The notes under the pieces: model-generated | The model's database searches: none | What the model was told of the DNA's origin: nothing | Seen by the model: the letters and a program-made list of their open reading frames with translations, nothing else | Shown here: piece after piece, positions 2,745-4,909 of the stretch | How the letters are laid out: the number at the start of each line of letters is the position of its first letter | Position numbering within the stretch: position 1 is the first letter of the stretch | Program-made: the position numbers and the translations under genes | NCBI GenBank assembly: GCA_024638815.1 | Contig: JAHEJM010000033.1 | Coordinates: forward strand, 1 to 37,501 | Source: Acidimicrobiales bacterium | Lineage (GTDB): Bacteria; Actinomycetota; Acidimicrobiia; Acidimicrobiales; SZUA-35 | DNA: 37,501 nt | Direction: 5' to 3'

Positions 2745-4214
2745 ATGAGACTTCGCTTGGCGATGGGCGTCGCCGTCGCTTTTGCCCTCATGGCCACGGC
2801 GTGCGTCCCCGACGAGCCGGGTACCGCCACCGTCGACCCGTTCGACAACAACGCGTCCCGGACCGTGTCCGAGCCACCGAACGACACCATCGGCTCGACC
2901 CGGCGCACCATCCCCGAGGAGGCACCCTCGTCGACCGAGGCCACCGTGACGTTTCCCGCCACCGAGCCCGAGCTCGGGCCCCTTCCGGAGCCTCCGTGGG
3001 CCGGTGAGCGATTTGACCTCCAGCCCATCGCCCAGGCCTCGACGATGCTGGGCTTCGCCACCCGGTCCGGGACCGACGACCTGTGGCTGGCCGAACGTGA
3101 CGGCCGGGTTCGCGTGGTGCAACGCCGAGTGTCGCTCGATGGCGGATACGAGGCGGTCAAATTGCTCAACACGGTGGTGCTGGACATCACCGACAAGGTC
3201 GGCACTGCGGGAGAGGGAGGTCTGCTGGGGCTCGACTTCTCCACCAATGGCGACTACCTCTATGTCAGTTACACCGACAACGATGGCGACTCGGTCGTCG
3301 CCGAATACCGCATGGGTCCGCTTCAGGCCCTTGCCGAGACCGAACGCATCGTGATGACCGTGCCCCAGCCCTACGCCAATCACAACGGCGGCCAGATCAC
3401 CTTCGGACCCGATGGTTTCCTCTACTACGCCCTCGGCGACGGAGGCAGTAGCGGTGACCCCGAGGGCAACGGCCAGAACCTCGACACCCTGCTCGGGTCC
3501 ATTCTCCGCATCGATCCGTTCGAGCCGCCGGAGAACCAGAGCTATGCCGTGCCCGCCGACAACCCGTTCGTGGACCGGTTCGACGCCAAACCCGAGATCT
3601 GGCTCTATGGCGTACGCAACCCGTGGCGGCTCTCCTTCGACCACGCCACCGGCGATCTGTGGATCGGCGATGTCGGCCAGAACGAGATCGAGGAGATCGA
3701 CTGGTTGCCCAACACCGGAGTGAGGCCGGCCGGTTACGGGGCCAATCTGGGCTGGGACATCATGGAGGGTGACCGGTTGTTCGAGGGCGAGGCGCCCCCC
3801 GCCGATCATGTGGGCCCGGTGTTCACCTACGGCCACGACTTCGGTCGATGCTCGGTAACCGGTGGCTACGTCTACCGGGGCGAGCAGAACGAGAACCTCG
3901 CCGGTGCCTACCTGTTCGCCGACTATTGCAGCGGCGAGGTCATCGGACTCAGGATTCTGGACGACGGTCGGATCCTCGTGTCCCCCCTGGAGTTCGACCG
4001 CCGGTTGGGTCGGGTGGTGGCCTTCGGCCAGGGTCCGGAGCAGGAGCTGTACGTGCTCGAGGCCGACGGCGTCGTCTCCCGCATCCAGCAACAGCAATGG
4101 AGGCGGGAGACCGAGGTCTTCGAGGGCGACGAGGCCATCCCTGCCGGACGGTATCGGGTGGACATCCAGGCCGGTCCAGACGATCCCGTCATCGCCGATC
4201 TCGGCGGCGACTAG
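2745..4214 (+). CDS. Lipoprotein PQQ-dependent sugar dehydrogenase (glucose/sorbosone dehydrogenase family)
   Basis: 489 residues. Residues 1-20 form a lipoprotein signal ending in the lipobox LMATAC (Cys20), so the protein should be anchored outside the membrane. A low-complexity Thr/Pro/Glu linker of about 70 residues leads to a six-bladed propeller of the GSDH/HHIP type. Visible family motifs are LWLAERDGRVRVV, GEGGLLGLDFS, NHNGGQITFGPDGFLYYALG, GVRNPWRLSFD, WIGDVGQNEIEEIDW and YLFADYCSGEV. The family oxidises aldoses using PQQ and calcium. The His in NHNGG and the Arg in RNPWR match the usual active-site region. No PQQ synthesis genes are in the window, so the cofactor source is unknown. 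An upstream extension of the frame back to 2382 overlaps the divergent GtrA-like gene and lacks a signal peptide, so it was rejected. Confidence 0.9.
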   Translation: MRLRLAMGVAVAFALMATACVPDEPGTATVDPFDNNASRTVSEPPNDTIGSTRRTIPEEAPSSTEATVTFPATEPELGPLPEPPWAGERFDLQPIAQASTMLGFATRSGTDDLWLAERDGRVRVVQRRVSLDGGYEAVKLLNTVVLDITDKVGTAGEGGLLGLDFSTNGDYLYVSYTDNDGDSVVAEYRMGPLQALAETERIVMTVPQPYANHNGGQITFGPDGFLYYALGDGGSSGDPEGNGQNLDTLLGSILRIDPFEPPENQSYAVPADNPFVDRFDAKPEIWLYGVRNPWRLSFDHATGDLWIGDVGQNEIEEIDWLPNTGVRPAGYGANLGWDIMEGDRLFEGEAPPADHVGPVFTYGHDFGRCSVTGGYVYRGEQNENLAGAYLFADYCSGEVIGLRILDDGRILVSPLEFDRRLGRVVAFGQGPEQELYVLEADGVVSRIQQQQWRRETEVFEGDEAIPAGRYRVDIQAGPDDPVIADLGGD

Positions 4215-4271
4215 GGCAAATCAGCCTAGGGGCAAATGGGTCCGGAGACTGGCCATCAAGGGCCGGTGGAC

Positions 4272-4277
4272 TATACT
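4272..4277 (+). promoter_or_regulatory. -10 element of candidate small RNA promoter
   Basis: The hexamer TATACT is a strong sigma-A -10 match in an otherwise GC-rich stretch, 57 bases after the stop of the sugar dehydrogenase gene. The -35 region (around 4249-4254, CTGGCC) is weak. Transcription would begin near 4283 and run directly into two hairpins, with no open reading frame of note. Confidence 0.5.
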
Positions 4278-4282
4278 GGGCC

Positions 4283-4385
4283 TTCCAACCAACACACCCC
4301 GCATCCTGTTCTCCCGATCAGGATGCAGCCAGTGGCCTCTGACGCTCACAACCCGCCAGCGTCAGAGGCCACACCCGTTTTCGGG
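4283..4385 (+). ncRNA. Candidate small RNA with two C-rich hairpin loops (6C-like)
   Basis: Between the convergent genes ending at 4214 and 4439, a -10 box is followed by two perfect hairpins. Hairpin 1 has an 8-bp stem (4301-4308 with 4319-4326) and the loop TTCTCCCGAT. Hairpin 2 has a 15-bp stem (4332-4346 with 4358-4372) and the loop CACAACCCGCC. A short T run follows at 4378-4381. Two adjacent stem-loops presenting unpaired cytosines are the hallmark of the actinobacterial 6C RNA, whose loops are thought to pair with G-rich ribosome-binding sites. The match is not perfect: the longest C run is three, not six. Hairpin 2 may also end transcription of the upstream gene. Exact ends are estimates. 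Confidence 0.55.
4332..4381 (+). terminator. Strong 15-bp hairpin with short T run
   Basis: A perfect 15-bp inverted repeat with an 11-base loop, followed after five bases by TTTT, which itself sits in a small CCCG-TTTT-CGGG hairpin. It probably terminates the candidate small RNA and perhaps readthrough from the sugar dehydrogenase gene. The T tract is weak by E. coli standards but ordinary for high-GC actinobacteria. Confidence 0.6.
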
Positions 4386-4438
4386 CCTCGTCGCCGGTCC
4401 GGCACCAGTGTGGGGACGGAGGTCGGCCGTGCCCGTCG

Positions 4439-4909
4439 TCAGAGCTTGTAGCGGTAGACGTTTGTCTCCCGGGGCTCGAAGCCAAGGCGCCGATAGAGGC
4501 GGTTGGCCGCCTCCCGCGACGGCCGCGACGTGAGGTCGACCGTGGTGGCGCCGGCCTCGGCGGCCATGGTCAGGGCATGACGGTTCAGGGCTGAGCCCAC
4601 GCCGCGGCCCCGGGCCTCGTCATCCACCACCACATCCTCTATCCAGGCCCGTATCCCGGTGGGGATGGCAAACAGCACCAGCGTCAGGCTGCCCAGGATC
4701 CGCCCTTCGACCCGGGCCACGAGCAGGCGGGACGCCTCGGACGCGGCGATCGTCTCCAGCACCTTCTTGGACGGCGGCGGGTTGGAGGAGGACAGTTGGG
4801 GGATGAGCCGTTCGAAGGCGGCCACCACCTCGTCGGTCACCTCGGTGATCTCGGAGATCTCGGTACCGGTGGTGGCGGTGTGGTTGTCAGCGGTTGCATC
4901 AGTGCTCAT
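4439..4909 (-). CDS. GNAT-family N-acetyltransferase
   Basis: 156 residues. The GNAT fold is clear: the acetyl-CoA pyrophosphate-binding motif is in VVVDDEARGRGVGSAL, matching the R/Q-x-x-G-x-G/A consensus, followed by helix residues and the closing ANRLYRRLGFEPRETNVYRY, which is the usual C-terminal tyrosine-rich strand. The first 30 residues are Thr/Ala-rich and probably disordered. The acceptor substrate is unknown. The start at 4909 is chosen because an AGGT ribosome-binding sequence precedes it. This start region is a tandem 17-bp duplication (see the repeat at 4904-4937), which creates a six-codon upstream frame whose TGA overlaps the ATG. It is convergent with the small RNA candidate and divergent from the PAC2 gene. 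Confidence 0.88.
   Translation of the reverse strand: MSTDATADNHTATTGTEISEITEVTDEVVAAFERLIPQLSSSNPPPSKKVLETIAASEASRLLVARVEGRILGSLTLVLFAIPTGIRAWIEDVVVDDEARGRGVGSALNRHALTMAAEAGATTVDLTSRPSREAANRLYRRLGFEPRETNVYRYKL

Follow-up and report, generated by a model that had tools for sequence, protein, structure and literature searches.

A locus in an Acidimicrobiales genome very probably encodes a small regulatory RNA made up of two hairpins with conserved C-rich loops. The DNA analysed, hereafter the window, is a stretch of 37,501 nucleotides (assembly GCA_024638815.1, contig JAHEJM010000033.1), in which the element occupies an intergenic region around positions 4272-4385. Sequence comparison across three lineages suggests that the product is likely to be a trans-acting, base-pairing non-coding RNA of about 100 nt, expressed from its own -10-type promoter and belonging to an Acidimicrobiales family absent from Rfam 15.

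Anatomy and conservation of the element in the window's genus

The element is flanked upstream by a gene with a GSDH domain (plus strand, ending at 4214) and downstream by a GNAT gene (minus strand, 4439-4909), confirming the position between convergent genes given by a preceding sequence-only reading. Across 4272-4385, TATACT, a C/A-rich tail, an 8-bp hairpin, a 15-bp hairpin and TTTT occur in succession, and the following features have been recognised:

4216-4229, plus strand: conserved upstream box GCAAATCAGCCTAG, tentatively a candidate activator site, defined by eye from the pattern GYAAnnnnnCCTAG
4272-4277, plus strand: -10 box TATACT, exact in the five element-bearing genomes and matched in a promoter scan
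4285-4300, plus strand: unpaired C/A-rich 5' tail CCAACCAACACACCCC, with 15 of 16 alignment columns invariant in five genomes
4301-4326, plus strand: hairpin 1 of 8 bp with loop UUCUCCCGAU, from folding and alignment, four of eight pairs changed on both sides
4332-4372, plus strand: hairpin 2 of 15 bp with loop CACAACCCGCC, from folding and alignment, one of 15 pairs changed on both sides
4378-4381, plus strand: short T run TTTT, a weak 3' end signal read from the sequence, with a negative terminator scan

The two perfect stem-loops of the earlier reading, with loops presenting CCC and CCCGCC, are borne out by sequence and folding. Eight perfect pairs between 4301-4308 and 4319-4326 enclose the loop TTCTCCCGAT in hairpin 1, and 15 perfect pairs between 4332-4346 and 4358-4372 form hairpin 2. 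The folding energy of 4280-4390 is -52.4 kcal/mol, compared with -25.0 (sd 3.0) for 200 shuffled sequences (z -9.05), none of which folded as well. A search of the whole window against Rfam at gathering scores returned a tRNA as the sole match, and 401 bases around the element, searched up to E 10, gave three chance families, 6C not being among them.

The conservation in related genomes that the earlier reading had proposed as a check has been found as five homologues at the same locus. DNA searches detected the element in five of the 12 genomes of the genus, these being the window's own, G003, G007, G010 and G008 (E 9.2e-33 or better), and in each of the other seven the best DNA match had an E-value of 0.08 or more. 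All five elements are located between GSDH and GNAT. In G001, G004, G009 and G011, GSDH adjoins GNAT with 19-100 nt between the BLAST ends and no element, and no GSDH was found beside GNAT in G002 and G005, in a neighbourhood check that left out G006. Given its occurrence in five of 12 genomes of the genus and five of 39 of the family, the element is therefore dispensable; the GNAT tree has few supported branches and cannot date its gain or loss. A small conserved ORF (RRSxAML...RREQ-like, by eye) follows GNAT in loci L042, L045, L046 and L051, which belong to other genera of the family.

Over eight genome pairs, near-copies excluded, the RNA shows an identity of 0.85 against 0.53 in each flank, with shuffled sequences at 0.49-0.52. 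All 23 pairs are kept in all five sequences, with no broken pair and five pairs changed on both sides, and hairpin 1 varies by compensated substitutions in the five-genome alignment. Apart from a one-base gap in G007, which is the remaining column of the tail, no change is seen in the tail, in UUCUCCCGA of loop 1 or in AACCCGCC of loop 2. One-base gaps occur in both tail and linker and are evidence against a coding sequence. Loops and tail that resist change, together with stems that covary, are typical of an RNA that recognises something by its unpaired parts. Stem covariation, whose absence in relatives would have counted against the earlier reading, is present here and in the two lineages described below.

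The clear -10 box of that reading has likewise been confirmed, with a poor best -35 element (TGGCCA, spacer 16), and from its position transcription probably starts at 4283-4285. Upstream of TATACT, identity is near the shuffled level (0.53 vs 0.50), and the sole conserved part of this region in the five genomes is the GYAAnnnnnCCTAG box, directly 3' of the GSDH stop codon. Its CCTAG starts 47-48 nt before TATACT in all five genomes, a distance fixed within one base, and the box may possibly serve as a site for a regulator or activator. At the other end, the closing T run is present, but it comprises only four T, held in the short hairpin CCCG-TTTT-CGGG, and no terminator was found by a scan of 4150-4450. 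The run consists of seven T in G003 and of mixed T/C in the second lineage.

Related elements in two further lineages

A covariance model from the window's lineage (R1), run over 397 genomes of the order, matched seven genomes at E <= 0.001, among which G255, G402 and G072, all three of family f35, have been accepted together with the window's own genome. In the genus of G255, R1 matched 16 of 22 genomes at E <= 4.1e-4, of which 15 have the anatomy of the element and one, G310, has been rejected as a hairpin alone. A second model (R2), built from 15 second-lineage elements, adds G209 and G387, giving 17 of 22 genomes. Over the order sample, which covers part of this genus, R2 matched 19 of 397 genomes, namely 14 of the G255 genus, G272 of a third family (f32), three that were rejected, and G134.

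Second-lineage elements carry an extended -10 sequence TGCTANNNT in 16 of 17 cases and the tail ACCCAAACCACACCACCA, with one base different in G072. Hairpin 1 has 8 bp and a three-base loop that is not C-rich; hairpin 2 has 14-15 bp and the loop AUCCCGCCA in 13 of 17 elements, with close variants in G402, G072, G372 and G209. Among 13 distinct sequences, three of 23 pairs have changed on both sides. The neighbourhood, for which the gene families were taken from locus L153, comprises a cysteine-synthase-like gene upstream in all 17 genomes and rph downstream on the same strand, seen at 16 of the 17 loci. Where rph was seen, it lies 19-94 nt from the element (tblastn match) in 14 of 16 loci, and about 880 nt and 760 nt further on in G402 and G209, respectively. 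A second box, GATGTGCTATAAG (L153 1460-1472 and relatives), precedes CAAACC by about 28 nt in 16 of the 17 elements, with one change each in G402 and G209; it is absent in G072.

In the third family, R2 matched 11 of 40 genomes at E <= 1, and only G290 and G272 fitted on viewing; nine R2 rows of this family (E 0.02-0.99) were rejected. A model built from these two elements (R3) matched nine of 42 genomes at E <= 0.01, comprising eight of the nine genomes of the G290/G272 genus and G632 (E 0.0051), rejected for a loop without CCCGCC. All eight elements are located between a sigma-factor gene (of ECF type by Pfam in L208) with a following gene that has no Pfam match, on one side, and a gene that we take to be prmC, on the other. 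The latter name comes from sequence motifs, together with Pfam methyltransferase matches and a release-factor-like neighbour. The motif UCCCCGA, which matches UUCUCCCGA of the window's loop, occurs in seven of the eight, G434 being the exception. Eleven of 22 pairs have changed on both sides, nine of them in hairpin 2, and the covariation score was reached by none of 500 shuffles; the alignment was fitted to the structure, and the count therefore leans toward it. Hairpin 1 is poorly paired in this lineage (72% of cells), and on viewing no clear common -10 box was seen.

Cross tests between the models link the three lineages. R2, in whose construction the window's lineage had no part, ranked the five elements of that lineage as the top five matches in 49.5 kb (23.3-26.6 bits, the next match having 10.2). 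R3 matched all ten elements supplied from the other two lineages, and no further match up to E 1 was obtained in the 64.9 kb searched. R1 in turn matched both f32 loci (29.6 and 15.5 bits). All 30 accepted elements (5, 17 and 8 across the three lineages), one per genome, have a long hairpin with CCCGCC in its apical loop and, before this hairpin, a tract that is unpaired or weakly paired; they lie in intergenic DNA or just past a gene end. The long stem measures 15 bp in the five elements of the window's genus and at least 11 bp, as counted by script, in 24 of the 25 others, the exception being G442, with mismatches. Since R1 led to f35 and R2 to f32, the cross matches and the loop census are partly expected by ascertainment, the models themselves favouring loops of this kind. 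More independent support comes from the conservation of each match across a genus, its location in non-coding DNA and its covarying stems, and further from the presence of UCCCCGA in the third lineage even though R2 holds no such motif.

Whole-genome E-values alone would not settle whether these elements form one family, because in the R1 scan of the order a coding false positive in G016 (7.2e-6) outranks the accepted distant homologues (2.0e-5 to 2.9e-5). Over the 39 genomes of the window's family, nine matched R1 at E <= 0.1, five of them accepted; G016 and G049 were rejected as open coding sequence, and G052 and G001 (E 0.014 and 0.066) for lack of a fitting anatomy. Also rejected were G398, an inverted repeat with another loop, weak R1 rows of G154 (C15), G121 (C30) and G418, and, on viewing, the R2 matches of G298, G089 and G116, while R1 rows of G402 (C14), G310 (C91), a second place in G274, G326 and G121 (C38) were dropped unviewed on an E-value of 0.3 or more. 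Antisense matches of the palindromic hairpin 2 were left out of the counts, and MAFFT alignments across lineages, not being structurally clean, were kept out of model building. An R3 scan of the class matched two of 395 genomes and missed the window's own at E 0.01, and therefore says little about absence.

Further loci in two genomes are separate observations. The R3 match in G652 (E 0.0027), rejected for having no ACCCGCC, contains at L268 1501-1594 a hairpin TGTG-UUUCCCGA-CACA that resembles the first motif of the third lineage, and a second hairpin that likewise lacks ACCCGCC. G134 carries two paralogous loci on different contigs (L193 1501-1581 and L204 1501-1581), which combine a TATAGT box, the tail ACCCCCC and a pair of hairpins whose loops are different, and which are perhaps another C-rich small RNA.

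Relation to 6C and alternative explanations

The actinobacterial RNA 6C (RF01066) is known as B11 in Mycobacterium tuberculosis (PMC4046766, PMC8628891), and has two hairpins whose loops typically have six C each (PMC4046766). The likeness extends to the phylum, a length of about 90-100 nt and two successive hairpins with C-rich loops, the second of them near the 3' end. Stems kept by compensated changes, a general mark of such RNA families, are also found in the element in all three lineages. The earlier reading had seen in the window the architecture of 6C with shorter C runs, and proposed either a divergent 6C or a different RNA of the same logic. The 6C-like order of parts has stood, since nine 6C loci that were viewed present a hairpin, a short linker, a longer hairpin with a C-rich loop and then a C/T-rich end; membership in 6C has not gained support, and the different RNA fits best.

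That the element is nonetheless a true member of 6C, strongly diverged in Acidimicrobiales lineages that lost the long C runs, is considered unlikely. Besides the order of parts, this view is favoured by a score of 36.0 bits for the G255 element on the full 6C model (E 0.0017, with 231 bases searched). When 16 6C loci were scanned with R2, 13 weak matches of 8.8-22.6 bits resulted, nine of which, spread over seven loci, fall on the 6C element; in f103, CCCGCCC occurs in the first loop of two 6C matches that stay under the cut-off. However, the score of the G255 element falls short of the required 47 bits, and the match was absent from a 20-locus scan up to E 5 that used stricter filters. In the Rfam 6C scan proposed by the earlier reading, nothing in the window reached the gathering score (47 bits), and 4100-4500 gave no match up to E 10; the third-lineage element likewise had no 6C match up to E 10. 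Conversely, R1 found no full element in the 16 6C loci, where its single partial match, on hairpin 2, had 10.1 bits (E 0.54). The element also differs in having CCC and CCCGCC in place of any six-C run, and its C/A tail is unpaired, at a place where a further hairpin seems, by eye, to be present in several 6C loci. At E <= 0.001 and with stricter filters, no 6C match was found in 41 genomes comprising the window's own and its relatives, under settings that detected, of 14 controls, only C. glutamicum, below the cut-off. With stricter filters as well, the 6C model matched 16 of 198 genomes of the phylum at E <= 0.001, eight of them over the cut-off, and none of the 16 belongs to the window's class. 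The Streptomyces RNA Scr3202 (RF02833), which also has two hairpins and a C-rich second loop, gave the second-highest bit score on the G255 element, but its 27.8 bits are far below its cut-off of 52, and it was not found for the window element.

Explanations tied to the locus itself fare less well. An intergenic position between convergent genes and a stable hairpin followed by T would suit a strong transcription terminator serving GSDH and GNAT and nothing more, but the T run is weak, the conserved loops, tail and -10 box are not needed by a terminator, the same kind of RNA occurs at two other loci, and four genomes of the genus have GSDH beside GNAT without it; this explanation is regarded as highly improbable. 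A cis-acting leader or attenuator, or an RNA derived from a 3' UTR, would tie the element to a neighbouring gene, as might be suggested by its position close upstream of same-strand rph in most second-lineage loci, and by the L208 locus of the third lineage, where the upstream gene ends inside the model match. The neighbours nevertheless differ between lineages, the downstream gene is convergent in the window's genus, and rph is distant in G402 and G209. Three unrelated gene neighbourhoods make such a cis-acting role improbable, if somewhat less so than a terminator. The trans-acting RNA is thus retained as the preferred reading. In all three lineages, the element scored below the cut-off of every Rfam family, and among the matches listed in a search of titles and abstract starts in the open literature there was no report of such an RNA in Acidimicrobiales.

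Proposed mode of action and significance

Transcription would proceed on the plus strand from the -10-type promoter, its start and end points being those predicted from the sequence. The RNA would then most likely act in trans, pairing with G-rich stretches of particular mRNAs through two seeds, of which UUCYCCCGA lies within loop 1 or in weakly paired sequence and ACCCGCC within loop 2. The unpaired C/A tail could also pair with G-rich mRNA stretches, and hairpin 2 would additionally protect or form the 3' end. Base pairing with mRNAs is the likeliest mode because of the analogy with 6C, which, to go by the title of a 2019 report by Mai, reportedly pairs with mRNAs through its C-rich loops. 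The element may accordingly work like 6C while its membership in that family is not supported. Pairing of C-rich unpaired seeds with G-rich mRNA sites also occurs in C-rich-loop small RNAs of Firmicutes such as RsaE/RoxS, which differ in phylum and sequence and in that generic anti-Shine-Dalgarno pairing is unsupported for the Acidimicrobiales element.

The earlier reading had taken the loops to be complementary to G-rich ribosome-binding sites, a claim that the sampled gene starts do not support. In 237 gene starts, predicted on the window together with 366 kb more of its genome, the Shine-Dalgarno zone was compared with upstream and coding sequence. GGGAGA, the complement of loop 1, occurred three, three and one times in these zones, and GGCGGG, the complement of loop 2, one, three and five times, with no enrichment at the ribosome-binding sites of these starts; GGAGG, the real Shine-Dalgarno sequence of the genome, occurred 17, three and two times. 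A simple home-made gene caller and a sample of about a twelfth of the genome imply low power, although the GGAGG peak was as expected. In a duplex test of gene starts against coding sequence, 55, 27 and 9 of 60 shuffles equalled the tail, loop 1 and loop 2, respectively, and the true anti-Shine-Dalgarno control was likewise equalled by its own shuffles (27 of 60), so that the test does not discriminate. Given this lack of enrichment, a generic masking of ribosome-binding sites, or anti-Shine-Dalgarno role, is not supported by the sequence. Two genes of the window's own genome (L252 near 8855 and L248 near 9535), which look like paralogues, have been observed to begin with ATGACCGA(C/A)GGCGGGTTGCC, whose complementarity to the second loop spans nine bases.

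Regulatory RNAs of Acidimicrobiales, an abundant and mostly uncultured group, seem to be little described. It is conceivable, as a tentative proposal held below even likelihood, that this RNA is a regulator filling the place of 6C in the class, with its seeds UUCYCCCGA and ACCCGCC kept while its gene changed place among unrelated loci, including one immediately behind an ECF sigma factor gene pair. On this proposal the family may still show the ancestral state of 6C, with defined loop sequences rather than C runs and one or few conserved targets. With its covarying stems and near-invariant loops, the family yields a covariance model ready for use and seeds that can be tested, and offers something with which 6C can be compared.
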